Assembly (NCBI RefSeq): GCF_031624495.1
Contig: NZ_JAMQOP010000003.1
Coordinates: 62,001 to 126,000, forward strand
From: Halogeometricum sp. S1BR25-6
GTDB lineage: Archaea > Halobacteriota > Halobacteria > Halobacteriales > Haloferacaceae
Length of the DNA stretch: 64,000 nt
Direction: 5' to 3'
Position 1 is the stretch's first letter. Each line of letters begins with the position of its first letter. The notes under the pieces were generated by a model. The model did no database searches and was not told the origin of the DNA. It was given only the letters and a program-made list of their open reading frames with translations. The translations under genes were made by a program, and so were the position numbers. Shown here piece by piece: positions 7,240 to 28,198 of this stretch.

Positions 7240-9117
7240 TCACTCACTGGCCGTGGATAGCTTCGAGACGAGCGACCCGGGCGCGACCGTCTCACCGTCG
7301 CGAACCTGGTCGTGCAGGACGGGCGCGTCCAGTTCGCTCGGCACGTTCCAGTAGCCCGAATCGGAGCTGTCGTACATGAACTTGTAGTGGAAGTACGGAT
7401 GGGAGTTGTCGTAGGAGGCCCACCCCTGCAGACCGACGACGAAGTTGCCGTTCACGTAGTCCTGTCCCCAGTAGGCGGAGTTGTCCTTCATCACGGGTTC
7501 GGCTTCGATGCCGAACTGGTCAAGTTGGGAGACGGCCGTCTGCGCGCCGGCGACCCAATCGGAGAACCCGGAGGGTCCCTTGATCGGGATTCTGAGCGCC
7601 TGCCCGTCTTTGCCCCACGTGCCGCCCTGCTTCCGATACCCCGCCTCTTCGAGGAGGGACGCCGCTTTCTCGGTCTGTGATGCGCCGCGGCCGTACGTCT
7701 GGAACTGGTCGGTGACGCCGTCCAGCCACGTTCCCTCGACCTGCCCGCTGAACTCGCTCGTCAGTCCCGTCGGATAGGTGACGGCGATCTTCGAGTTGGT
7801 TCCGGCCCCGGAGTTCATCGCGACGGCTTCGCGGTTGATGACGTGCGCCAGCGCCTTGCGAACGCGCGGGTCGCTCACCGGTTCTTCCTCGTGGTTGAAC
7901 ACGAGACCCATCCCCCAGTGTCGGGGGATGAGGCTCGTCTGCACGGAGTCGGGGAGTTGGTTCAGCTTGTTGCTCGGGACGAACAGCGTCGCCGACCCGT
8001 CCGTCTCCTCGTTGATGAGCGAGTTCCACCGGCTCTGGTTCGACGGTTTGTAGAGGTACTCGACCTCGGGGAAGTTGATGTTCCCGGCGTCCGGGTGGTC
8101 CTCGAACTTCGAGACGAGCGTTCGCTGGGTGTCCGCGTTCTCGAATTCGAACGGCCCGCTCCCGACCGGTTCGGAAACCGCCAGACTCGTGAGTTCGCCC
8201 AGGACCGTCGAGCGCTCGTCGGCCGACCCCGCCTCGTCGAGTCGCGTCACGAACTCGCCGTACGTCTCCTCGTGGGCGACGAGGTACTTCGGCTGGAGGT
8301 ACGCCAACAGGATGTCCTCGTTCACCTGCGTGGCGAGCGTCAGTTCGGCGGTTCGTTCGTCCACCGCGGTGACGCGGTCCGCGACCGCCCCCTCGTCGTC
8401 GGGCGCGACGAACCGACCGAGACTGCCGCCGTTGTAGATGTCGAGTTTGATCTGGTTCACCACGTCCGTCGCGGTGACCGGCGTTCCGTCGTGCCACGTC
8501 TGCCCCTCGCGGACGGTCATCGAGAGAGTGTCCCCGTTCAGTTCCCACTCGGAGACGAGGTATCCGGAGTACTCCTGGGTCTTCAGATTGTAGTTCATGA
8601 ACCGGTCGAACAGCGTCCGACGGGGCTCGGCGAAGTTCTTCGCGTTCCACGTGTTGTACTGGGAATCCTTCGGAACGGCCCACTGTGCGAGCGTCAGCCG
8701 CTCGTCGGAGCTTCCATCGGTCGCGGTCCACTCGCCGTAGCGCGGCAGCCAGTCGGTCGGCCAGTACGTCTGAATCTTGGGGCTGTCCTTCGGCGGGACG
8801 TCCCAGCTATCCGTGGTCTGGAACGACTGTGCGAGCTTCTCCTGGAGCGGCAGCACCGGGAGCGTCTGGTTCGTCACGTACGCGAGCTCCTGTATCAGCG
8901 AAAGGGACTCGCTGTTGACCTCGACCGCCGTCGCCGTCGATTCGGTCTCGGTCGCCGACGCGTCGCCCCCGCCCTGGGTCTGCGTCGCCGTCTGTGTCGC
9001 CTGTTGTCCGCCACAGCCCGCGATTCCCGCCGTGATGCCCGTTGCGCCGACCGCGCGTACGAATCGCCGCCGCGAGAGCGGCGACCGATTCGAATCTGTC
9101 GTGTTATTTTTCCACAT
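7240..9117 (-). CDS. ABC importer substrate-binding lipoprotein (family 5)
   Basis: A 625-residue solute-binding protein. The N-terminus has a Tat signal (SRRRFVRAVGATGITAG) and lipobox (IAGC, about residue 34), then a Thr/Ser/Gln-rich linker, so it is exported folded and anchored outside the membrane. The body follows the SBP_bac_5 family (SLTVREGQTWHDGTPVTATDV region; VRKALAHVINREAV). First gene of the operon binding protein-DppB-DppC-DppD-DppF. Family 5 proteins bind peptides but also oligosaccharides; with GH43, TrmB and GH13 genes beside it an oligosaccharide ligand is more likely (inference). A TATA-like TTTTATT lies at 9148-9154 and GGTGA at 9121-9126. Confidence 0.92.
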   Translation of the reverse strand: MWKNNTTDSNRSPLSRRRFVRAVGATGITAGIAGCGGQQATQTATQTQGGGDASATETESTATAVEVNSESLSLIQELAYVTNQTLPVLPLQEKLAQSFQTTDSWDVPPKDSPKIQTYWPTDWLPRYGEWTATDGSSDERLTLAQWAVPKDSQYNTWNAKNFAEPRRTLFDRFMNYNLKTQEYSGYLVSEWELNGDTLSMTVREGQTWHDGTPVTATDVVNQIKLDIYNGGSLGRFVAPDDEGAVADRVTAVDERTAELTLATQVNEDILLAYLQPKYLVAHEETYGEFVTRLDEAGSADERSTVLGELTSLAVSEPVGSGPFEFENADTQRTLVSKFEDHPDAGNINFPEVEYLYKPSNQSRWNSLINEETDGSATLFVPSNKLNQLPDSVQTSLIPRHWGMGLVFNHEEEPVSDPRVRKALAHVINREAVAMNSGAGTNSKIAVTYPTGLTSEFSGQVEGTWLDGVTDQFQTYGRGASQTEKAASLLEEAGYRKQGGTWGKDGQALRIPIKGPSGFSDWVAGAQTAVSQLDQFGIEAEPVMKDNSAYWGQDYVNGNFVVGLQGWASYDNSHPYFHYKFMYDSSDSGYWNVPSELDAPVLHDQVRDGETVAPGSLVSKLSTASE

Positions 9118-9120
9118 GCT

Positions 9121-9154
9121 TCACCTACGTTTGTTACATACGTCTCAATAAAAT
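9121..9154 (-). promoter_or_regulatory. Promoter and ribosome site of the importer operon
   Basis: Minus-strand AATTTTATTG (around 9147-9156) is a TATA-like box about 33 bases before ATG 9117, and AGGTGA (9121-9126) a Shine-Dalgarno next to the start. The 253-base gap to the divergent alpha-glucosidase also holds a T/A-rich stretch (9186-9196) that could serve the other direction. Confidence 0.5.
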
Positions 9155-9370
9155 TTCGGGTAGAATCTATTCTTCGCGATATTAGTCTTTTTTAAGCGGG
9201 TGGCTCTTCCATCCAGTAGAGAGCGCGGAAGGACGTTCCCGACACATGAAGACGACACTCACACCCGCCCGACCGACGATAGAGACCCGCGCGACCGCAC
9301 GTCGCGCACAGACCGACCGTCCCGTCCGCCGACCGCAACGCCGCCGGGACGAACGCCGCCGCGAGGACCG

Positions 9371-11188
9371 ATGAGCAGCCCCGAGACGGAGCCGGCGCTC
9401 GACCGCGCGTGGTGGAAGGAGGCGGTCGTCTACCAGATCTACCCCAAGAGCTTCAACGACTCCGACGGCGACGTTCGCCGAACCGATGGTTCGGCGAGCC
9501 AGCCGGGAACCCGACGGATTTCCGGTGACGGCGTCGGCGATATCCCGGGCATCATCGACCGCGTCGACTACCTCGACGAGTTGGGCGTCGACGCCGTCTG
9601 GCTCTGCCCGGTGTACGAGTCGCCGCAAGCGGACAACGGCTACGACATCAGCGACTACCGGTCGATAGCCGACATCTACGGCGACTTGGATGACTGGGAA
9701 GCACTCCTCGACGCCCTGCACGCCCGCGACATCCGTCTCGTGATGGACCTCGTCGTCAATCACACCTCCGACGAGCACGAGTGGTTCCGGAAGTCCCGGC
9801 GCCGCGAGGGTGCGTACGAGGACTACTACATCTGGCGCGACGGCGACACGGACGAAGAGGGGGACCCGACGCCGCCGAACAACTGGGAGTCGGTGTTCGG
9901 CGGCCCGGCGTGGACGTACGACGAAGAGCGCGGGCAGTGGTACCTCCACCTGTTCGACGAGAAGCAACCGGACCTCGACTGGCGCAACCCCGACGTTCGC
10001 GAGGCGGTGTACGAGATGATGGAGTGGTGGCTGGAGAAGGGTATCGACGGCTTCCGGATGGACGTCATCAACCTCGTCTCGAAGGCGGAGGGACTCCCCG
10101 ACGGCGACCCCGACGCCGGGCTGACGGGGGCAGAGCACTTCTTCAACGGTCCGAACGTCCACGAGTACCTCGGCGAGATGTGCGACGAAGTGCTCTCGGA
10201 CGACGACCTGCTCACCATCGGCGAGACGCCCGGCGCGGACGTCGAAGACGCTCGGCAGTACGTCGCCCCCGACGGCGACGGTCTCTCGATGGTGTTCCAG
10301 TTCGAGCACGTCACCTTCGACCACGACGAACACAAGTGGGACGCCGGCGACTGGTCGCTCGTCGAGTTCAAGCGGACGCTCGCGAAGTGGCAGACCGGCC
10401 TCGCCGACGACGGATGGAACAGCGTCTATCTGAACAACCACGACCAACCCCGAATGGTCTCTCGGTTCGGCGACGCCGGCGACCGAGATTCGTCGGCCCA
10501 CCGGACGCGGTCCGATGACGACGAGGGGTACCGCCGGAAGTCGGCGAAACTCCTCGGGACGCTCACGCACACGCTCCACGGGACGCCCTTCGTCTACCAG
10601 GGCGAGGAGATCGGCATGACGAACGCCTCGTTCGCCTCGCCCGACGAACTCCGCGACGTCGAGGCGCTGAACTTCGTGGAGGAGGCCATCGAAGCGGGAC
10701 GCGCCGACTCCTACGACGACGTCCGCGACGCGGTGGAGTACGTCGCACGCGACAACGCCCGGACGCCGATGCAGTGGTCGGACGTACCCAACGCGGGCTT
10801 TACCGACGAGGACGCCGACCCGTGGCTCAAATGTAACGCGAACTACGAGACGGTCAACGTCGAAGCCGCCCGCGCCGACGAGGACTCCGTCTTCAACTAC
10901 TACCGCGACCTCATCGACCTCCGACACGACCGCGACGTCCTCGTCTACGGCGAGTTCGACCTCCTCCGCCCCGAGGACCCCGACGTCTTCGCGTACACGC
11001 GAACGCTCGGCGACGAACGCGGGCTGGTCGTGCTCAACTTCGCGGCGACCCCCGTCGAGTTCGCGACGCCCGAGCGCCTCTCCGTCGGCGGTCTCGAACT
11101 CGCGATTTCGAACGCCGAGGCTCCGACGGCGCCGCCGGAAACGCTCGAACTCGGGCCGTACGAGGCCCGCGTCTACCTCACGTCGTAA
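9371..11188 (+). CDS. GH13 alpha-glucosidase with a 19-codon insertion
   Basis: A 605-residue family 13 alpha-glucosidase (oligo-1,6-glucosidase type) that hydrolyses alpha-linked gluco-oligosaccharides in the cytoplasm. Start RAWWKEAVVYQIYPKSF is typical. Catalytic residues: nucleophile Asp231 (GFRMD), acid/base Glu285 (IGET), stabiliser Asp358 (NNHDQPR); also VMDLVVNH. ATG 9371 is chosen since homology begins there; the frame is open from 9200 but Arg/Thr-rich. Oddity: the early loop DSDGDGVGD, which binds a metal ion in the family, is split by about 19 codons (9473-9529). It diverges from the importer operon and precedes its paralogue by 47 bases. Confidence 0.92.
   Translation: MSSPETEPALDRAWWKEAVVYQIYPKSFNDSDGDVRRTDGSASQPGTRRISGDGVGDIPGIIDRVDYLDELGVDAVWLCPVYESPQADNGYDISDYRSIADIYGDLDDWEALLDALHARDIRLVMDLVVNHTSDEHEWFRKSRRREGAYEDYYIWRDGDTDEEGDPTPPNNWESVFGGPAWTYDEERGQWYLHLFDEKQPDLDWRNPDVREAVYEMMEWWLEKGIDGFRMDVINLVSKAEGLPDGDPDAGLTGAEHFFNGPNVHEYLGEMCDEVLSDDDLLTIGETPGADVEDARQYVAPDGDGLSMVFQFEHVTFDHDEHKWDAGDWSLVEFKRTLAKWQTGLADDGWNSVYLNNHDQPRMVSRFGDAGDRDSSAHRTRSDDDEGYRRKSAKLLGTLTHTLHGTPFVYQGEEIGMTNASFASPDELRDVEALNFVEEAIEAGRADSYDDVRDAVEYVARDNARTPMQWSDVPNAGFTDEDADPWLKCNANYETVNVEAARADEDSVFNYYRDLIDLRHDRDVLVYGEFDLLRPEDPDVFAYTRTLGDERGLVVLNFAATPVEFATPERLSVGGLELAISNAEAPTAPPETLELGPYEARVYLTS
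9464..9533 (+). repeat. In-frame 57-base insertion with inverted repeat in GH13 gene
   Basis: Compared with the paralogue next door (DSDGDGVGDIPG), this gene carries 57 extra bases (about 9473-9529) encoding VRRTDGSASQPGTRRISGD. The insert contains an inverted repeat, TTCGCCGAACC (9474-9484) against GGTTCGGCGA (9488-9497), and is bordered by GACGGCG at 9464-9470 and again 9527-9533. It looks like a tiny palindromic element inserted without breaking the frame; the direct repeat could also be coincidence of GAC/GGC codons. Confidence 0.6.
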
Positions 11189-17553: not shown

Positions 17554-18267
17554 TCACTCGAACGAGACGTCGACGTCGACGACGACGACGGACACCCGTT
17601 GTGTGTCCACCGTACAGGTGAGCGTCTCGCCGGAGACGGACCCACACGTCGCGCCCGCGTCGGATTCGAGCGTCCGTTGCCACGCGTCCGCGCGGGGCGA
17701 CGTTATCGTGATAGAGACACGTTGCGGCGTCCGGTCGGCGACGGCGACGCGCGTCGCCTCCCGAACCGTCGCCACCCTGGTCGACCCGCCGACGGCGGCC
17801 GGTCCCGTCGCCTCGTCAAGACGGACGACGGGGAGGACGACGCCCTGGTCCGAGAATTGGAGTCGTGGTTCGGTGAGCATCACGACCCCGTGCCCGTCGT
17901 CGCGGACGACCGCCCCGTTGACGTAGACGAGTTCCGTCCCGTCGTCACTTCGATAGACGAGCGGACGGACCTCGTACGTCTCGTCGAACGCGTCGCCTGT
18001 CACCGTCACCGTCACCGGGTCGCCGAGAGCCAACTGGCCGCCGTCGAGTCGGAACCCCGTCGACCGACGCGGAGCGTCGTTCCCGACCACGTCGTTGACG
18101 TTGCCCGCGAACGCCGCCATCCCGCGCTCGACGTTCGAGACGCGCTGGGAGTTCTGGACGTCTTCGATGGCCGGGTAGACGACGAGCGAGACGACGACGA
18201 TCATCAGCATGACCAGTCCGAAGACGGTGGAGAACCCGAGCGTCTCCGCCTGCGCTCTATCGGTCAC
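17554..18267 (-). CDS. Pilin-like protein (DUF7289-type)
   Basis: A 237-residue pilin-like protein: short basic leader MTDRAQAETLGF and one hydrophobic helix (GFSTVFGLVMLMIVVVSLVVYP), then a beta-rich extracellular domain (LALGDPVTVTVTGDAFD, VLPVVRLDEAT, RVSITITSPRADAWQRTL). The TLGF leader resembles pilin processing sites. Last gene of the pilus operon; its start overlaps the preceding gene by 11 bases. Probably a minor pilin or pilus-tip/assembly component. It is related in plan to the larger protein at 28281-30125. DUF number from memory. Confidence 0.75.
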   Translation of the reverse strand: MTDRAQAETLGFSTVFGLVMLMIVVVSLVVYPAIEDVQNSQRVSNVERGMAAFAGNVNDVVGNDAPRRSTGFRLDGGQLALGDPVTVTVTGDAFDETYEVRPLVYRSDDGTELVYVNGAVVRDDGHGVVMLTEPRLQFSDQGVVLPVVRLDEATGPAAVGGSTRVATVREATRVAVADRTPQRVSITITSPRADAWQRTLESDAGATCGSVSGETLTCTVDTQRVSVVVVDVDVSFE

Positions 18268-18703
18268 GGAGCGTCACCTCCGAGGACGTCGTGGGATCGT
18301 ACCCGACGTCGATCGGCCCGCCGCGGACCGTCCCCTCCGCCACCGTCGTCTCAGACCGGAACGGAACGTAAACGACGACGTCGGGGGTGGAACTCCGCAG
18401 CGTGAGTCGGTAGCTGTCGTCGCCGGTCGATTCGACGGTAACGGTGTAGGGAGTTCCGACGACGCGGTCGGGAAGGTCGCTTCGCAGACGGACCGTTCCG
18501 TCGGTCTGCCGCGCGACGCCGTCCACTGTGGCGACGTCGGCCGCGAGTCGGTTCCCGACCACGTCGAGTTGCGACCGGACGCCGCGCTCCTGTTGGTCGA
18601 CCACGAGGTCGCCGACGCCGACCACGAGCGTCGAGACGAGAATCGCCACGATGCCGAGGAGCAGCACGTAGTTCAGCGCGGTCGTCGAGGCGCGGTCACG
18701 CAT
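18257..18703 (-). CDS. Pilin-like protein (DUF7266-type)
   Basis: A 148-residue protein with leader MRDRASTTALNY, a hydrophobic helix (VLLLGIVAILVSTLVVGVG) and a small beta-rich outer domain (RLTLRSSTPDVVVYVPFRSE). ATG 18703 overlaps the preceding stop (ATGCGTGA, 18696-18703), so translation is coupled. A minor pilin of the operon; function unproven. Confidence 0.75.
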   Translation of the reverse strand: MRDRASTTALNYVLLLGIVAILVSTLVVGVGDLVVDQQERGVRSQLDVVGNRLAADVATVDGVARQTDGTVRLRSDLPDRVVGTPYTVTVESTGDDSYRLTLRSSTPDVVVYVPFRSETTVAEGTVRGGPIDVGYDPTTSSEVTLRDR

Positions 18704-19652
18704 CGGTCTCACCCGGGACGACCCGTAGTTCGGTCGCGTACGCCAACTGCGGCGTCTGGTACGCCACCGAAACGGTGACGGCGTAGACTGCGGGCGAGGT
18801 CGTCGGTCCGACGTCGTCGTACCGGTCCGGACTCGGACCCGTCACGGCCGACTCGTTCGCGTCGACGACCAGCCGGTACGTTCCGTCTGCCCGCGTCCCG
18901 CTCTCGTAGACGACGTCGTACGGTCCGGCGAGTCCGTCGGCGAACGGCGGAAACGAGCAGGTCCCGTCGGCCACCGTCCCCGAGGAGAGGTCGACGACCG
19001 CCGACGCGCCCGAGACGCTGCAGGTTTTCGTCCCGGTCGGGCCCTCGACGGTCACGTCGATGTCCGACCCCGTCTGCGTGAACGATGCGCGCCACGCGTC
19101 GCTTCCGTCGTCGGCGACGACGGCGAAGCACTCGGGCGTGCACGACGAGGAGAGGTTCGCCCGGGAGACGTTCATCTCGAAGGCGCGGGTCCGCTCGACC
19201 CCCGAGGCGAGCGTCCAGGTGTCGGTCGCGTTCGCGTCGGTGAAGGTGCGAGCGCCGCGCTGTTCGATGCTGGTCCCGCGTTCCCAATCGATCAGTTTGA
19301 CGGAGAGGTCGACACTTTCCGCGGCGCCACCGCGGGCGGCCGTCTCGTCCCAGTCGCCTACCGAGTCCGTGAGCGCGGCGTCGAGGTCGGCGTACGACCC
19401 GTCGCTCCGCCGGTTGAGTACTTCGACGGCGCCGCCGATGCCGCGGTGGACGCTGTGTTCGAACCGGACGACGTCGCGAGCGTCGTGGACGTCGGTCCGG
19501 TCGGTCGCCAGCGCTTCCCCGCTCGCGACGCCGTTCAGGATCATCGCCAGCGCCACGACGAGGAGGGCCAGGGAGAACGCCCCCACGAGGAGGAGTTGGC
19601 CGCGGTCGTGGTCGTGGCGTTCGGTTCGAAGCCGCGTGCTCAGACCGGCCAT
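18696..19652 (-). CDS. Pilin-like protein (DUF7261-type)
   Basis: A 318-residue protein: basic leader with DRGQ, hydrophobic helix LLLVGAFSLALLVVALAMILN, then a large outer domain with an N-terminal helical part and a beta-sandwich-like remainder. Three or more cysteines (SSSCTPECFAV, KTCSVSG, GTCSFPP) suggest disulfides outside the cell. The DRGQ-LLLVGA start is typical of haloarchaeal pilin-operon proteins. It overlaps the preceding gene by 13 bases. Probably a minor pilin. Confidence 0.75.
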   Translation of the reverse strand: MAGLSTRLRTERHDHDRGQLLLVGAFSLALLVVALAMILNGVASGEALATDRTDVHDARDVVRFEHSVHRGIGGAVEVLNRRSDGSYADLDAALTDSVGDWDETAARGGAAESVDLSVKLIDWERGTSIEQRGARTFTDANATDTWTLASGVERTRAFEMNVSRANLSSSCTPECFAVVADDGSDAWRASFTQTGSDIDVTVEGPTGTKTCSVSGASAVVDLSSGTVADGTCSFPPFADGLAGPYDVVYESGTRADGTYRLVVDANESAVTGPSPDRYDDVGPTTSPAVYAVTVSVAYQTPQLAYATELRVVPGETDA

Positions 19653-20239
19653 ACGACCACCTCCACGCGGACGACGTTGTATATCGGACCGTCACCGTCG
19701 ACGGCGTCGGGGACGTGGAACGACGACGCCTCGGTCAGCGTCGTCTCCGTCTCGGCGCCCGATGCGTCGAGCAACACGTCGTCGTCGTACAGCGTGACCG
19801 TCCGTCCCGCTCGCACCGCGTCGTCGGTCGGCGTTCCCTGTCTGATCACGGGAACGCGTCGCTGTTCGTTCGTCGTCGGGTCGACGTGGACTACATTCAC
19901 GTTATACGTGTATCCCGACCCCGCGAACGACTCGTTCAGCAACGTGCCGAACGCCGTCGGCATCTCGCCGTTGACGGAGTAACGGTAGTCGCCCGTGCCG
20001 TGGAACGAACTGTCGTCGGGGTCCCAAGAGAGCAGGGTGGCCCGAACGGCGCCGTCCGCCGCCGCGGCGTCGAGAACGCCCACGGCGACGCCGTACTGTG
20101 CTTCCGTTACCTGTTGGCTCGACGTACTCGCCGTGAGCGCGGTGACGCCGCCCACCTGCGTGACGAAGATGACGGTCCCCACGAGGAGCACCGCCGCCGT
20201 CACCGACTCCAGCGTGAACGTCTGTGCGCGGTCGGTCAT
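19640..20239 (-). CDS. Pilin-like protein (DUF7288-type)
   Basis: A 199-residue protein: leader MTDRAQTFTLESV, hydrophobic helix TAAVLLVGTVIFVTQVGG, then an outer domain (GTGDYRYSVNGEMPTAFG; YTYNVNVVHVDP). ATG 20239 follows the preceding stop by one base (TGAGATG). The FTLE segment resembles the F-T-L/I-E processing motif of classical type IV pilins, with Glu at +5 of the mature helix. Minor pilin by context. Confidence 0.75.
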   Translation of the reverse strand: MTDRAQTFTLESVTAAVLLVGTVIFVTQVGGVTALTASTSSQQVTEAQYGVAVGVLDAAAADGAVRATLLSWDPDDSSFHGTGDYRYSVNGEMPTAFGTLLNESFAGSGYTYNVNVVHVDPTTNEQRRVPVIRQGTPTDDAVRAGRTVTLYDDDVLLDASGAETETTLTEASSFHVPDAVDGDGPIYNVVRVEVVVWPV

Positions 20240-20240
20240 C

Positions 20241-20789
20241 TCACCACACCCTCACTTCGAGAACCGCGGGGTGGTCTCCGACGAGGACGGTTCGGCGTTC
20301 GGTCGCCGCCGACCGGTGGGCCTGTGGAACGTCCGGACCGACGGCGAGACGATCCGTCCCGCACGCGCCGACGTCGCCGTCGTTGTAGCACAGCGGGTCC
20401 AGTTCGGCGTCACCGGTCACGTCCCACTGCAGGGTGACGTTCACGCTGTAGGTCTCGTGGACGCCGACGATGTCGGTGAGTTCGCCGCCCGTCGAGAAGG
20501 GGCATCCGGTACCGCCGGACCCGGCGAAGAACGCGCCGGTACATTCGACGTCGAGCGTTCCAGGGGCGCCCGCACCCGACTCGACCAGCAGCGAGTCCGC
20601 GAGCGCCGTCGACGCGCGCTCTGCGACCAGCGGCGTCTCCTGTGCGTCGTACTGCGCGATCAGTTGCGGCGCGCTCGCGACGACGAACGACAGTGCGAGG
20701 AAAAAGACCACGATTCCGAGCAGGAAGTCGAGGTTCGTCTGTCCCCGGTCTCGCGTCGTCGCGACGGCCACATCGTCGGGTCGGGTCAT
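20241..20789 (-). CDS. Pilin-like protein (DUF7287-type)
   Basis: A 182-residue protein: leader with DRGQTNLDF, hydrophobic helix LLGIVVFFLALSFVVASAP, and an outer domain with four cysteines (VECTGAFFAGSGGTGC; LCYNDGDVGAC), probably paired outside the cell. ATG 20789 overlaps the PilC stop as ATGA (20786-20789). Much longer upstream frame (to 21554) is only a shadow of pilC. Minor pilin by context. Confidence 0.75.
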   Translation of the reverse strand: MTRPDDVAVATTRDRGQTNLDFLLGIVVFFLALSFVVASAPQLIAQYDAQETPLVAERASTALADSLLVESGAGAPGTLDVECTGAFFAGSGGTGCPFSTGGELTDIVGVHETYSVNVTLQWDVTGDAELDPLCYNDGDVGACGTDRLAVGPDVPQAHRSAATERRTVLVGDHPAVLEVRVW

Positions 20790-22819: not shown

Positions 22820-23188
22820 TTACCTACCTTTGGTCGGGTCGTCGCTGTCGGTCTGTTCTGCGTGCGCAGTCGGGAGACCGCCGTCGGTCGCCGGCGGTTC
22901 GGCGTCCCCGTCGTCGACCGCGACCAGATCGAACGCGTCGGTCGGCTCGTCGGCGACGGGTTCGTCCGCCGTCTCCTCCTCGACGTGGTCGTCGTGGCCG
23001 CCGTCGTCGCCCGTCGGTGCCGCGGCGACGTGTTCGTCGATGTCCACGTCTTCGAGGGCCGCGATGACCGCTTTCACCCGCGAGACGGAGAACTCCGTCT
23101 GTGACGCCTCGAGGACGGCCGACAGGTTCTGTTCGTTGATCTCAGCGCCGGTTTCGTTCAGCAGCAAGGTTGCGTAGGTGTACTTCAT
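22820..23188 (-). CDS. Ribosomal stalk P1/L12-like protein inside pilus operon
   Basis: A 122-residue protein. Residues 1-57 closely follow the archaeal ribosomal P1 (L12) N-terminal dimerisation domain: MKYTYATLLLNETGAEIN, then SAVLEAS, SRVKAVIAALEDVDIDEHVAAA. A long acidic tail follows (D/E/A/P-rich), as in P1, but the tail ends DSDDPTKGR and lacks the conserved C-terminal factor-binding motif (L-G-x-L-F-G) of true P1. So it should dimerise but not recruit elongation factors. The gene sits three bases after pilB and nine before pilC on the same strand. Its job in pilus assembly is unknown; it is not the housekeeping stalk gene, which normally clusters with L10/L1. Confidence 0.8.
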   Translation of the reverse strand: MKYTYATLLLNETGAEINEQNLSAVLEASQTEFSVSRVKAVIAALEDVDIDEHVAAAPTGDDGGHDDHVEEETADEPVADEPTDAFDLVAVDDGDAEPPATDGGLPTAHAEQTDSDDPTKGR

Positions 23189-23191
23189 GAG

Positions 23192-25945
23192 TTATCGAGT
23201 CCGTGATTCGTCTCCGCGCCGTTCGTCGTCCGTCTCCGCACCGTCGCGTGCGTCCGCGTCCGTGCCGCCGTCGCTGACGGCTTGCACGGGGTCGCCCTCC
23301 GCGTCCGCGGGGCTGGCGGGCGTAGCCGTCGGTCCGTCGTCCGACCCCAGCAGCGTCGCGCCGTGGAACATGTCCGCGAGTCGCTCTCGCTGACCGGGTT
23401 CCGCGATGACGTTCTCCGAGTCCGAGATGTCCGCGAGAATCGTCGCGAGCGACCTCGGCTCTCTGTTCCGGTAGTCGGCGAACAGGTCCGTCTCGGCGCC
23501 GTCGAGGAACGCCCGCGCCCGTTCGTACGTCTTCACGTCCGGGTCGGGACGGGGGACGAGCGCCTCCTTCTCGGGGTCCACGTCGATGACGACGCTCTCC
23601 ATCTTTCGGAGTTCGCCGAGGTGGTCCTCGAGGGTCCCGTTCGACATCATGGTCAGGATGGCGTCGGGGTCGTTGAGGAAACCCTGCAGCGTCGCCGCGA
23701 CCTGCGTGTACTCGTTGAGGCCGTTCACGACGAGGTACGCGAGGACCGCCTGTCGCTTGTAGAGTTCGCGTTCGAGCGTCTCCGTGTCCCACCCGCGGTC
23801 GAATCTGATCTTCTGAAGGGTGTTGGACTTCCCCATCGTCTCGTACTCGTCGGAGTCGGCGCTCCACTGGTAGACGTCCTGAACGTTGATCTCGTCGTTC
23901 TCGGCGTCGTAGTGGTTGATCTCGGTGAGCGACTTGTTCCGACGCACCTTCCGGCCCTGTATCCGCGTCTGGGTCTGGACCGAGACGAGATCGAGCGACG
24001 TGAACAGCGACTTCGAGACGTTGATGGGTTCGGTCGTGAAGCGCTTGAGTACCTCACCGACGCTGTCGGCGTGGAAGGTGGTGTACGTCGTGTGGCCGGT
24101 GCTCATCACCTGGAACAGCGTTCGTCCCTCCTCGCCGCGGACCTCGCCCATGACGATGTAGTCGGGGCGCTGTCTGAGGGCGGCCTCCAGCAGGTCGAAC
24201 TCGTCGATGTCGCCCTTGTCGCTCGTCCCGAACGCGGGGCGGGTGACGGAGGCGATCCAGTTTCGCTGCGGGAGTTCGACCTCTCGGGTGTCCTCGATGG
24301 AGACGATTTTCGTGTTGTTCGGAATGAACAGCGACACCGCGTTCAGCGAGGTGGTCTTCCCGGAGGCGGTCCCGCCGGCGAAGATGAGTGACCGGTTGTT
24401 CTCGATGCAGAGCCACAGGAACGCCATCTGCTCGAGCGAGAACGTGTGCCAATTGATGAGGTCGACCGGCGTGAACGGTACGTCCTTGAATTGCCGGATG
24501 GTGTAGTTCGTCCCGTGCCCGGAGACGGTCTTTCCGAGCGTGAGTTGCGCGCGGGAGCCGTCGGGGAGGGTCGCGTCGACCTGCGGGCGGCGCTGGCTGA
24601 TACCCTTCCCGGAGCGCTGGGCGAGTTTGATCACGAAGTCGTCGAGTTCGCCCTCCCCGTGTTCGACGTTCGTGATGATCTGCTCGTAGTCGGTGTGGTA
24701 GACGAACACCGGCGAGTTGTAGCCGTCGCAGGAGATGTCCTCGACGTTGATGTCGTGTTTGACGCCGTCGATGCGCTCGTAGCCGAGGAAGTTCCGCTTC
24801 AGCAAGTAGAGCAGTTTGTGCACCTGGTACTCGGTCAGCGTGTCCGCGTCCTCCGCCAGCACGGCGGGTTCGGGGCGCGCCGCGATGCCGTCCAGTTCCC
24901 CCTGCGTCTCGGTCTCGAAGGTGCTGTCGTCGTCGAGGAGGCGCAGCAGTTCCTCGATGCGTCGGCGGGGATTCGAGAGCAGCGAACTGCCGTCACCGTA
25001 CAGGTCGTAGCGGTTCAGGAGTCGGTGCGTCTCGCGTTCGAGAACCCGCTCTCTGTCGGCGTCCGGCCCGCGGACGATGACGTCGTCGTCGGAGTACTTG
25101 ATGGCGGTACGAAGCTTCCCCGAGAGGAACCGCATCAGCGACTGTTCAATCTCGTTGCGGTACGGCGAAACGAGGTAGTACTTCTTCTCGTTCTCCCGCA
25201 GCGAGTGGAAGATAACGACGAAGGAGTAGGGCTTGTCCACCCAGTACCGCTCGACCTCGAAGAAGTGACCCTTCTTCTCCATCGACACCGCCTTCTCCAG
25301 GTCGTAGCGGTTGACCAGCGTCGTGTGTCCCTCGAGCGTCGAGAAGAACACGTCCTCGTCGAGTTCGGGGTGGACGTTGACCGTCCGTCTGTCGATGAGC
25401 GTGCGAACGTCGCGGGCGGCGTCCGCGCCGTGGTCGAGTCTGTCGCCGAACGCGTCCGGGTCGAATCCGAGGTGCGCTTCGGGACGGAACGGCACCACCT
25501 CGCCCTCCTCGCGGGGGAGGCTGCCGTCCTCGTAGTAGTACTCCCACTTGAAGTGCTCCCACGTGTACTCGCCTTTGGTGACGGGCGTGTTCTCGATCAA
25601 CCGGACGAACCACCCGCGGAACGCCTTCGCTCGGGTCGCCGCCAGTTCGATACGGCCGGGGAGTTCCTCGGGGTCGAACCCGAGCCACTCGGCCGGGTCG
25701 AACGCCACGGCGCTCCAGTCGGGCGCGGACGGCGACGTCCGATCACCGGACCGAAGCCCGAACCACCCGCCGCTCGACTTCGACTTCGATTTTGACTTCG
25801 AGTCCGTCTTCACGTCGCGGTAGGCCGCGGCGACGTCTTCGCCGTACCCGTGTTCCCGCATGAACTGGGCCCAGGTGTACGCGCCGACGGTGACGGGTAC
25901 TTCCTCGTCTTCGCGGACGTCCGTCCACCGAGAGTCCGTAGTCAT
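23192..25945 (-). CDS. pilB: Type IV pilus assembly ATPase (PilB/TadA/VirB11 family)
   Basis: A 917-residue secretion ATPase. Core motifs: Walker A GGTASGKTT (about residues 522-530), Asp box IVSIEDTREVELP, Walker B YIVMGEVRGEE (about 592-602), His box GHTTYTTFHADS (about 615). The N-terminus carries two copies of a unit beginning PVT-x-G-x-YTW (residues about 16 and 125) and ending LGFDP, separated by a Lys/Ser linker (DSKSKSKSKSSGG, about residue 50). A Ser/Asp/Glu-rich tail ends the protein. It powers pilin polymerisation at the cytoplasmic face together with PilC. ATG 25945 overlaps a short upstream frame as ATGA. Confidence 0.92.
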   Translation of the reverse strand: MTTDSRWTDVREDEEVPVTVGAYTWAQFMREHGYGEDVAAAYRDVKTDSKSKSKSKSSGGWFGLRSGDRTSPSAPDWSAVAFDPAEWLGFDPEELPGRIELAATRAKAFRGWFVRLIENTPVTKGEYTWEHFKWEYYYEDGSLPREEGEVVPFRPEAHLGFDPDAFGDRLDHGADAARDVRTLIDRRTVNVHPELDEDVFFSTLEGHTTLVNRYDLEKAVSMEKKGHFFEVERYWVDKPYSFVVIFHSLRENEKKYYLVSPYRNEIEQSLMRFLSGKLRTAIKYSDDDVIVRGPDADRERVLERETHRLLNRYDLYGDGSSLLSNPRRRIEELLRLLDDDSTFETETQGELDGIAARPEPAVLAEDADTLTEYQVHKLLYLLKRNFLGYERIDGVKHDINVEDISCDGYNSPVFVYHTDYEQIITNVEHGEGELDDFVIKLAQRSGKGISQRRPQVDATLPDGSRAQLTLGKTVSGHGTNYTIRQFKDVPFTPVDLINWHTFSLEQMAFLWLCIENNRSLIFAGGTASGKTTSLNAVSLFIPNNTKIVSIEDTREVELPQRNWIASVTRPAFGTSDKGDIDEFDLLEAALRQRPDYIVMGEVRGEEGRTLFQVMSTGHTTYTTFHADSVGEVLKRFTTEPINVSKSLFTSLDLVSVQTQTRIQGRKVRRNKSLTEINHYDAENDEINVQDVYQWSADSDEYETMGKSNTLQKIRFDRGWDTETLERELYKRQAVLAYLVVNGLNEYTQVAATLQGFLNDPDAILTMMSNGTLEDHLGELRKMESVVIDVDPEKEALVPRPDPDVKTYERARAFLDGAETDLFADYRNREPRSLATILADISDSENVIAEPGQRERLADMFHGATLLGSDDGPTATPASPADAEGDPVQAVSDGGTDADARDGAETDDERRGDESRTR

Positions 25946-26203: not shown

Positions 26204-26827
26204 TCAGACGATGTTTCGACTGACGTCGACGTCGACGTCGGTCGTCAGCGTGAGCTTGATGACGTCTTCGAGCGCCTGCCCGCCCCGGAACTTCGGAACC
26301 GTGAGGAAGTTCTCGACGACGTCGCCGCGCCGCTCCGTCGAGAGCTCGAACACCAAGTCAGCGACGTACTCAGTCGTGTCGCGCTGTGACGGGACCCGCC
26401 GGCCGTTCAGGCAGTGGAGGAATCCGACCGCGTTCGCCGCGTCGAGACCGTCGCGCAGGTCGTTCAAGAACGACCAGTACCGTGCGGACGGAAGCGCCTC
26501 GAACACCTCCATCGGGTCGACGACGAGCGTCGACGCGTCGGGCAGCGCCTCGAGCAATCGGAGGACCATCTCCGGTTCGGTCGGGTCGACGGACGTGACG
26601 ACGATGTCGTCGCGGGCCCGCCGCAACCCGACCATCGCGGCGTCGACGTCGTCGGCGGCGCGCACCGGACTGACGTACAGCGTCGGCCGAGCCGTTGCGA
26701 TCTCGTACAGCAGAAGTTCGGACTGGCTGGCGGGAGGTGCCAGCACGGCGGTGAGACTCCCGCGGGGGACGCCACCGCGCAGTTTTCTGTCGAGCAGTTC
26801 GATGCCCGTCTCGAATCGATCGGTCAT
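26204..26827 (-). CDS. RecA/KaiC-superfamily protein with degenerate P-loop
   Basis: A 207-residue protein with the KaiC/RAD55 start (TGIELLDRKLRGGVPRGSLTAVLA) but where the Walker A glycine-lysine loop should follow, the sequence is PPASQSELL, so no ATP-binding lysine is visible. Walker-B-like STLVVDPMEVF and a later VGFLHCLNG support the fold. It is therefore probably a non-hydrolysing regulator. It lies 140 bases before the short ORF/pilB unit on the same strand. FlaH, the KaiC-like partner of archaellar ATPases, is a possible analogue (inference). Confidence 0.75.
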   Translation of the reverse strand: MTDRFETGIELLDRKLRGGVPRGSLTAVLAPPASQSELLLYEIATARPTLYVSPVRAADDVDAAMVGLRRARDDIVVTSVDPTEPEMVLRLLEALPDASTLVVDPMEVFEALPSARYWSFLNDLRDGLDAANAVGFLHCLNGRRVPSQRDTTEYVADLVFELSTERRGDVVENFLTVPKFRGGQALEDVIKLTLTTDVDVDVSRNIV

Positions 26828-26892: not shown

Positions 26893-27365
26893 GCGTGAGA
26901 GGACCTACGAAGAACGTCCGTATTGTTACACATCCGATTCCGTCGGGTAGTGCACCGGTTAGAATCGTGTGAATTGTTCGCGCACGTACGAAGCCACTGG
27001 ACGGATCGTGCGGTCGAATCAGGCCGACAGCGAAAATCCCGTGTATCGGGGTTGAACGGGATGTAACGACCCATTGAGCGGCGAAAGCCGTGATTGAGGG
27101 ATGTTAATCAATCACGTACAGCCGCCGCGGTGAGCTAAACGTGTAGTTCTAACAAAATTATAAGTTCAATTACAATGGTGGTATCTGCCATCGAGGGAAC
27201 CACACCGATGAGCCGAACAGGACGACAACACTCGAACGCGAACTGGGGTGGGGCGCACGGCGTCCACGCCCGGGTGGTAACTGGGGGGCGGGGTCACACC
27301 CGCTCGTCTGGGTGCGTTCCGCTGTCGTCTCCGTCCGGCCGTGTGCGGTGTGTAAAAAACCAACC
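26893..27365. promoter_or_regulatory. Divergent promoter region and long G-rich pilin leader
   Basis: The region separates the KaiC-like gene from the pilins. On the plus strand AATTATAAG (27156-27164) with an A-rich element before it is a strong TATA box, but the first pilin starts about 200 bases later, giving a predicted leader near 180 bases. The leader has several G-runs between 27243 and 27295 (GGGGTGGGG, GGGTGG, GGGGGGCGGGG) that could fold as a G-quadruplex. No credible gene; a 64-residue frame from 27175 is Arg/Gly/Ser-rich. Confidence 0.5.
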
Positions 27366-27779
27366 ATGAAGCTATTCGAAGCCTTCCGAACGGACAACCG
27401 GGCAGTCTCCCCTGTCCTCGGTGTCGCGCTGCTGATCGCCATGACCGTCATCCTCGCGGGTGTCGTCGGCTACGTCGCCCTCGGCGTCGACGCCGACAGC
27501 GCGAACGCGCCCAGCGCGAGTCTCAAGTTCACAGAGGAAACTGTGTCCAGTGTCGATAAGGTCTACATGCACCACAAGGGCGGTCCTGTCCTTGATGGCG
27601 CTAACGTCGTGGCGAAAGTGGAAGGTACGGGTACTCCCATGACTATTTCAGGGGACGTTGCAACCGGCTCCAAAACAGAAGTCGCGACCGCTGTCGACCC
27701 TGGCGATGTTGTCAGTATCGTTTGGCAAGATCCCAACAGCGACCGTGAAGTGCTCCTCGCCGAGTACGTGGTGGAATAA
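27366..27779 (+). CDS. Type IV pilin (archaeal PilA-like), first of tandem pair
   Basis: A 137-residue pilin with a PibD-type leader: MKLFEAFRTDNR followed by AVSPVLGVALLIAMTVILA and GVVGYVALGV, the haloarchaeal pilin H-domain (cleavage expected before or near AVSP). The rest is a small beta-rich head ending IVWQDPNSDREVLLAEYVVE. Forms the pilus shaft after membrane insertion by PilC. No Shine-Dalgarno is visible. Its H-domain DNA differs from the next gene by about one base in 105, while the heads differ greatly. Confidence 0.92.
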   Translation: MKLFEAFRTDNRAVSPVLGVALLIAMTVILAGVVGYVALGVDADSANAPSASLKFTEETVSSVDKVYMHHKGGPVLDGANVVAKVEGTGTPMTISGDVATGSKTEVATAVDPGDVVSIVWQDPNSDREVLLAEYVVE

Positions 27780-27781
27780 AA

Positions 27782-28198
27782 ATGAAGTTCTTCAAAATCC
27801 CTGAGCGGTTCAGCGCGGACGACCGGGCAGTCTCCCCTGTCCTCGGTGTCGCACTGCTGATCGCCATGACCGTCATCCTCGCGGGTGTCGTCGGCTACGT
27901 CGCCCTCGGCGTCGACGCCGACAGCGCGGACGCGCCGCAGACAAAGCTCGCCTTCAAGCAGAGCGGTACTGGAGCCGACAACGTTACTGTTACCGTGGTC
28001 CACAAGGGCGGAGACAAGCTTGTGGCCGGTGAAGTAGTTGCTAAAACGACGGGCGCTGACGGCGGCGACGTCGGTGTTCTAACCACCGGTGACACGAAGA
28101 AATTCGATAACACGAGTCCGAACGACGTCATCACCATCGTCTGGCAGGACCCCGATAGCGACCGCGAAGTGCTCCTCGCCGAGTACGTGGTGGAGTAA
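27782..28198 (+). CDS. Type IV pilin (archaeal PilA-like), second of tandem pair
   Basis: A 138-residue pilin starting two bases after the first pilin's stop. Leader MKFFKIPERFSADDR, then the same H-domain (AVSPVLGVALLIAMTVILA) and the same end (QDPDSDREVLLAEYVVE), but a different middle (TKLAFKQSGTGADNVTVTVV, DGGDVGVLTTGDT). Surface diversity between identical ends suggests alternative shaft or minor subunits. Cotranscribed with the first. Confidence 0.92.
   Translation: MKFFKIPERFSADDRAVSPVLGVALLIAMTVILAGVVGYVALGVDADSADAPQTKLAFKQSGTGADNVTVTVVHKGGDKLVAGEVVAKTTGADGGDVGVLTTGDTKKFDNTSPNDVITIVWQDPDSDREVLLAEYVVE

Follow-up and report, generated by a model that had tools for sequence, protein, structure and literature searches.

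The archaeal ribosomal stalk protein P1 (aP1, L12P; model TIGR03685, structure 3a1y) has a helical N-terminal domain followed by an acidic, flexible tail. The dimer interface of human P1-P2 brings helices 1, 2 and 4 face to face (PMC3794596). Several haloarchaea possess a second P1 that keeps the terminal GLGxLFG motif, as on a plasmid of Natrinema caseinilyticum. Among pili, the relevant system is the PilB4-type pilus of the H. volcanii HVO_1160 locus, and probably of Hbt. salinarum pil-2, which is compared here by its description in the census of archaeal pili (Makarova 2016, PMC4858521): a PilB with halobacteria-specific N- and C-terminal extensions, a PilC and a set of pilin-like genes. 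Ribosomal and stalk proteins go unmentioned in the main text of that census, and in the open-licence full texts that we searched no P1/L12 protein is described from a pilus locus. The stretch analysed here, 64,000 nucleotides from Halogeometricum sp. S1BR25-6 (the window), carries a P1-like gene between pilB and pilC. We term this gene P1pil.

A P1 paralog in a pilus operon

A sequence-only reading of this DNA had recognized the N-terminus of P1 in the product, and the homology is borne out by sequence and by fold. Residues 1-59 match TIGR03685 (ribo_P1_arch) with an E-value of 6.7e-16 and 58.5 bits, which rules out chance similarity. The whole protein falls below the 100-bit equivalog cut-off of the model because its second half is unlike P1; the canonical P1 of the same genome scores 129.7 bits. 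A Pfam search with P1pil gave no match. In a PDB sequence search the top match was P. horikoshii P1 in the P0-P1 stalk complex, 3a1y (E 1.3e-12), and Foldseek with an AlphaFold2 model, based on just five aligned sequences, likewise placed 3a1y_A first (E 2.1e-4, rmsd 1.7 across 54 columns). The model has helices at residues 2-13, 19-28 and 35-47 and a short one at 50-53, with good confidence to about residue 48 and a pLDDT near 50 in the tail. The tail lacks the factor-binding GLGxLFG at its C-terminus. P1pil is thus a P1 N-domain joined to a non-stalk tail. Nor is it the only P1 of its genome, an explanation that can be discarded: the canonical gene lies on another contig (G000:C2:168591) next to P0 and encodes GLGELFG, whereas P1pil adjoins pilB and pilC instead. 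P1pil is a paralog of archaeal ribosomal P1 and not the ribosomal copy.

The gene had also been placed inside a tight pilus operon, and the spacing agrees, P1pil starting 3 nt after pilB and ending 9 nt before pilC (Table 1). It is the only gene separating the T2SSE and T2SSF genes (PF00437, PF00482), and pilin-like DUF genes follow downstream, the first overlapping the pilC stop by 4 nt. The series DUF7288, DUF7261, DUF7266 and DUF7289 is repeated in the same order in three other P1pil operons (L036, L038 and L116). The window PilB shows weak matches to PilB3_N and PilB3_C, and its match to NF058587 (E 3e-113) is under the cut-off of that model. Near the operon, at 27312-28198, two genes for PilA-like pilins stand in tandem, their products almost identical at both termini.

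Table 1. Features of the window, with positions, and the other loci at which P1pil was found
Feature	Position or locus	Strand	Basis or remark
P1pil, P1-like gene, 122 aa	22820..23188	-	ORF with these exact bounds, ATG start; TIGR03685 and 3a1y matches; order kept at 14 loci
P1 N-terminal (dimerisation-type) domain, residues 1-59	23012..23188	-	TIGR03685; AF2 and Foldseek to 3a1y_A; 8 syn/0 nonsyn (codons 1-60)
Acidic, fast-evolving, probably disordered tail without GLGxLFG	22823..23011	-	4 syn/18 nonsyn vs H. pallidum; pLDDT ~50
Tail motif FDLV, residues 86-89, candidate interaction motif	22922..22933	-	Sequence comparison; inference
pilB, T2SSE/VirB11-type assembly ATPase, 917 aa, N- and C-terminal extensions	23192..25945	-	PF00437 E 8e-31
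PilB residues 752-771, sole (non-significant) match to P0 spine-helix profile	23633..23692	-	hhalign E 0.23, probability 0.3%
pilC, T2SSF membrane platform protein, 674 aa	20786..22810	-	PF00482 E 1.9e-25
Pilin-like protein, 182 aa from MTRPDD	20241..20789	-	ORF frame, start picked by eye; same position in L036, L038
DUF7288 protein (pilin-like)	19640..20239	-	PF23959 E 4e-52
DUF7261 protein (pilin-like)	18696..19652	-	PF23922 E 6e-5
DUF7266 protein (pilin-like)	18257..18712	-	PF23928 E 1.7e-24
DUF7289 protein (pilin-like)	17554..18267	-	PF23960 E 1.7e-52
KaiC/ArlH-like DUF7125 protein, upstream of pilB	26204..26827	-	PF23442 E 4e-46; KaiC weak
Halogeometricum pallidum	G001/L034/L061		P1pil locus
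SHRA6	G005/L036/L050		P1pil locus
G015	L038		P1pil locus
Haloarculaceae MAG	L051		P1pil locus
Halococcaceae MAG	L052		P1pil locus; contig starts just before P1pil, pilB outside contig
G363, G309, G336, G306, G303, G182, G394	L069-L075		P1pil loci
Haloferax mediterranei ATCC 33500 plasmid pHME505	L116		P1pil locus

Conservation of the gene order

The sequence-only reading had proposed a check of whether this order recurs in other haloarchaea. It does: pilB-P1pil-pilC is kept at 14 loci including that of the window, four of which lie outside our sample of 392 genomes. Neither condition that the reading had set for its own refutation, a sole P1 gene or an order not shared elsewhere, applies. With the best start codon chosen for each gene, P1pil begins 2-6 nt after pilB where the distance is measurable, and pilC follows at -14 to +9 nt; 4 nt are shared by pilB and P1pil in H. 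mediterranei. The computed gap of 741 nt in H. pallidum arises from a break of the PilB frame at an ambiguous base (L034, approximately 8084-8123), probably an assembly error. The scattered taxa, together with the plasmid location in H. mediterranei, suggest horizontal spread.

Individual loci show further peculiarities. The gene table of pHME505, which is known to be incomplete, omits both pilB and P1pil although both ORFs are intact (L116, 6209-9438); P1pil occupies 9001-9438 of this locus, its ORF starting at 321738 on the plus strand of the plasmid. In G015, tandem repeats occur in the tails of both proteins, as EPTSEAMD units in PilB and PAMED units in P1pil (L038, 4200-5340). In G394, P1pil measures only 62 aa and its helix 3 is degenerate (L075, 4981-5169, minus strand); this copy is possibly decaying or further specialised.

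That degenerate copy, and the loss of P1pil from Halorarius, would fit a copy of P1 that arose by chance and became stuck in the operon without a function. However, the same slot is held across several families, the reading frame is open at all 14 loci, and the domains of the two closest copies differ by 8 synonymous and no nonsynonymous changes. We regard a mere hitch-hiker as very improbable.

Copies of P1 and of the pilus genes

The 392 Halobacteriales genomes were searched with TIGR03685, genomes with at least two matches were re-examined, and the neighbors of the extra copies were read. Many weak second matches proved to be the C-terminus of P0, and one in G142 (36 residues, E 8e-4) had no recognizable P1 gene at its locus. 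All 10 of the clear P1 paralogs lacking LFG in these genomes are found between pilB and pilC, ruling out that such duplicates land anywhere. By comparison, extra P1s that keep LFG occur in 15 genomes, and none of the 16 regions fetched adjoins pilB/pilC or P0. In a smaller, phylum-wide sample no LFG-less second N-domain appeared beyond Halobacteriales among the matches listed.

The second P1s of these 15 genomes are full-length and lie away from P0 (L077-L083, L085-L093 and L117). The one on the Natrinema caseinilyticum plasmid (L117) is near genes for Hsp20, a CBS-domain protein and universal stress proteins, and LFG-bearing extra copies are possibly a stress-linked variant of the stalk. An exception is G037, in which two convergent P1 genes adjoin P0 (L039, 4252-5277) and one has an atypical C-terminus (DLGGLFGDGEEEG).

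The PilC family is present in 360 of the 392 genomes. P1pil operons are second copies; in the core pil copies of the same genomes pilB leads directly to pilC, without P1pil. On a PilC tree, 13 P1pil loci fall inside one group of 15 rows (support 85/82). The two exceptions are Halorarius (L058), a true absence, and L056, in which the slot is off the contig. Presence of P1pil requires 3 changes on this tree, as compared to 11.6 expected in shuffles. Further extra PilB/PilC copies (L101, L103 and L105) are without P1pil, which therefore marks one copy group and not all duplicates. P1pil is tied to a single PilB/PilC group, and from the published description of the HVO_1160 locus we infer that its pilus is PilB4-like (PMC4858521).

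The KaiC/ArlH-like DUF7125 gene upstream of pilB raises the possibility that P1pil is the partner of this ATPase, a KaiB-like second component of a motor-regulating pair. The two genes do tend to occur together: DUF7125 is encoded in or beside nine P1pil operons with enough flank (the window, L050, L051, L061, L069-L072 and L116) and no 18-kb core pil locus that was fetched contains it. For some KaiC proteins linked to type IV pili, moreover, second components are predicted (Makarova 2016, PMC4858521). The association fails in both directions, however, since L073, L074 and L075 have P1pil but no DUF7125 gene within the fetched flank, and L058 and L103 have DUF7125 without P1pil. Such a partnership appears quite unlikely.

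Evolution of the domain and the tail

The two halves of P1pil evolve differently. Between the window and H. pallidum, the closest pair, codons 1-60 hold the synonymous changes given above and no others, and the tail differs by 4 synonymous and 18 nonsynonymous codons. In three other closest pairs nonsynonymous changes also exceed synonymous ones in the tail, and in the domain the two are about equal. The case for constraint on the domain consequently comes chiefly from conserved columns and from the window pair; these indicate that the domain is under strong constraint between the closest copies.

Conserved columns were compared with 36 canonical P1 sequences and 16 LFG-bearing paralogs. P1pil retains the core of helices 1-3 (e.g. 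Y3, Y5, A6, L8, L10, E16, N21, S36, R37, A40, A43-E46 and V48) and is relaxed at positions 4, 31-35, 41, 50, 52, 53 and 57, among them helix-4 positions that are conserved in both canonical P1 and the LFG-bearing paralogs. In N-domain trees of 49 columns, from which the degenerate G394 copy was excluded, uniting 13 P1pil sequences by constraint raised the likelihood 6.5 lnL units above that of the unconstrained tree (p-AU 0.63). A single origin of the P1pil domains is thus not rejected, and is allowed rather than proved by some 50 columns.

These data bear on whether P1pil still serves in the stalk, either bound to P0 or paired with canonical P1 in a heterodimer, where it might tether ribosomes making pilus proteins to the motor, or slow translation through factor-poor stalks. 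The domain core is strongly conserved, most P1pil domains being approximately 60-78% identical to ribosomal P1, and at this level P1pil could still meet P0 or canonical P1. The pilus genes share its operon, and three P1pil tails retain an internal LxxLF. Conversely, none of the 13 aligned P1pil tails ends in the factor-binding LFG, as compared to 53 of 54 other P1s, in line with the earlier view that the tail lacks the motif that recruits elongation factors. A further point against a stalk role is that effective binding to EF1A is not seen with a P1 peptide that lacks its final three residues (PMC6791870). The helix-4 positions that P1pil has lost are also kept by canonical P1 and the LFG-bearing paralogs, although their loss may affect dimerisation instead, as helix 4 lies at the human P1-P2 dimer interface. 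The missing LFG terminus and the relaxation of helix 4 argue against P1pil being an ordinary stalk P1, and we consider a continuing role in the stalk unlikely.

Tails of PilB and P1pil

Where P1pil is missing from the operon, the C-terminus of PilB is in most cases an acidic tail that carries aromatic motifs (GFGEFE, GGFEFG, SIFG). PilB tails contain 0-1 aromatic residues in P1pil operons and 2-19 in 18 of 19 P1-less operons (Mann-Whitney p 4e-5, ignoring kinship). The 19th, L102, scored 0 only since the tail cut-off fell past its FGGF motif. On the tree this pattern is one event, and hence a single correlation; Halorarius (L058), having lost P1pil, has not regained the aromatics in its PilB. 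The P1-less PilBs of L045 and L048 have long acidic C-termini in which the aromatic motifs GGFEFG and SIFG are repeated. Among P1pil tails, 8 of 13 bear short hydrophobic motifs, and 5 of the 13 aligned tails contain no aromatic residue. The motif FD[LI]V is common to three loci, as FDLV in the window and H. pallidum and as FDIV in H. mediterranei.

We searched PilB and PilC for a docking site. A helix resembling the P0 spine was not significant in either protein (hhalign E 0.23 for PilB, 0.49 for PilC) and the PilB stretch also occurs in P1-less PilBs; the candidate is kept as a lead only. PilB and PilC columns specific to P1pil operons are scattered substitutions, some in the N-terminal region of the YTW motif, and define no clear docking segment.

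A proposed role at the pilus motor

The conserved order, the constraint on the sequence and the restriction to one clade uphold the idea, raised in the sequence-only reading, that a stalk domain has been re-used in a pilus system. Of the two roles then suggested, supplying PilB/PilC with a dimer bearing an acidic tail fits better than coupling translation to the pilus. We think it probable, on balance, that P1pil was exapted to serve, as a dedicated and dimeric cytosolic accessory, the motor of one PilB4-like type IV pilus that is itself an accessory, second-copy system. The P1pil domain would dimerise as that of P1 does, and the dimer would grip a helix in PilB or PilC in much the way that P1 dimers clasp the spine helices of P0. 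The two acidic tails could then present short hydrophobic motifs at the motor (FDLV, SLDTLF or FEFE, depending on lineage), taking over the job of the aromatic-rich acidic C-terminal tail of PilB in P1-less sister systems. P1pil would thereby tune or scaffold assembly of the motor rather than act in translation. The specific version of this proposal, a structural subunit of the motor whose domain holds PilB or PilC and whose tails have assumed the role of the aromatic, acidic PilB tail, is put forward tentatively, being distinctly less secure than the general one.

If this is correct, one of the most highly conserved proteins of the ribosome would have taken on an unusual new job, and archaeal pilus motors would gain an accessory of unexpected origin. 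A gene of the P1pil type can pass for an ordinary 50S ribosomal protein P1 in annotation. The proposal is directly testable, since the whole operon is on a plasmid of Haloferax mediterranei, an organism for which genetics is published.

Comparison with known systems

P1pil resembles archaeal stalk P1 in its general plan, in its first residues (M[EK]YxYA..L) and in the motif SRVKAxxAALEDVD, and differs from it in the absent GLGxLFG, in the lost helix-4 positions and in residing in a pilus operon of a genome with a separate canonical P1. The LFG-keeping second P1s are likewise extra copies besides canonical P1, but they retain GLGxLFG and are not near pilB/pilC. With the archaellum motor, ArlI with ArlH, the likeness is by analogy only: a cytosolic accessory on a VirB11-type motor, although ArlH is a KaiC-type protein and has no P1 domain. 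The P1pil operon shares the extended PilB, the PilC and the pilin-like gene set of the PilB4-type pilus as described, and departs from it in the extra gene between pilB and pilC, in usually having the KaiC-like DUF7125 gene, in the few aromatics of its PilB tail and in being a second copy in few genomes. The pilus itself is of a known kind; what is new is an accessory of ribosomal origin.
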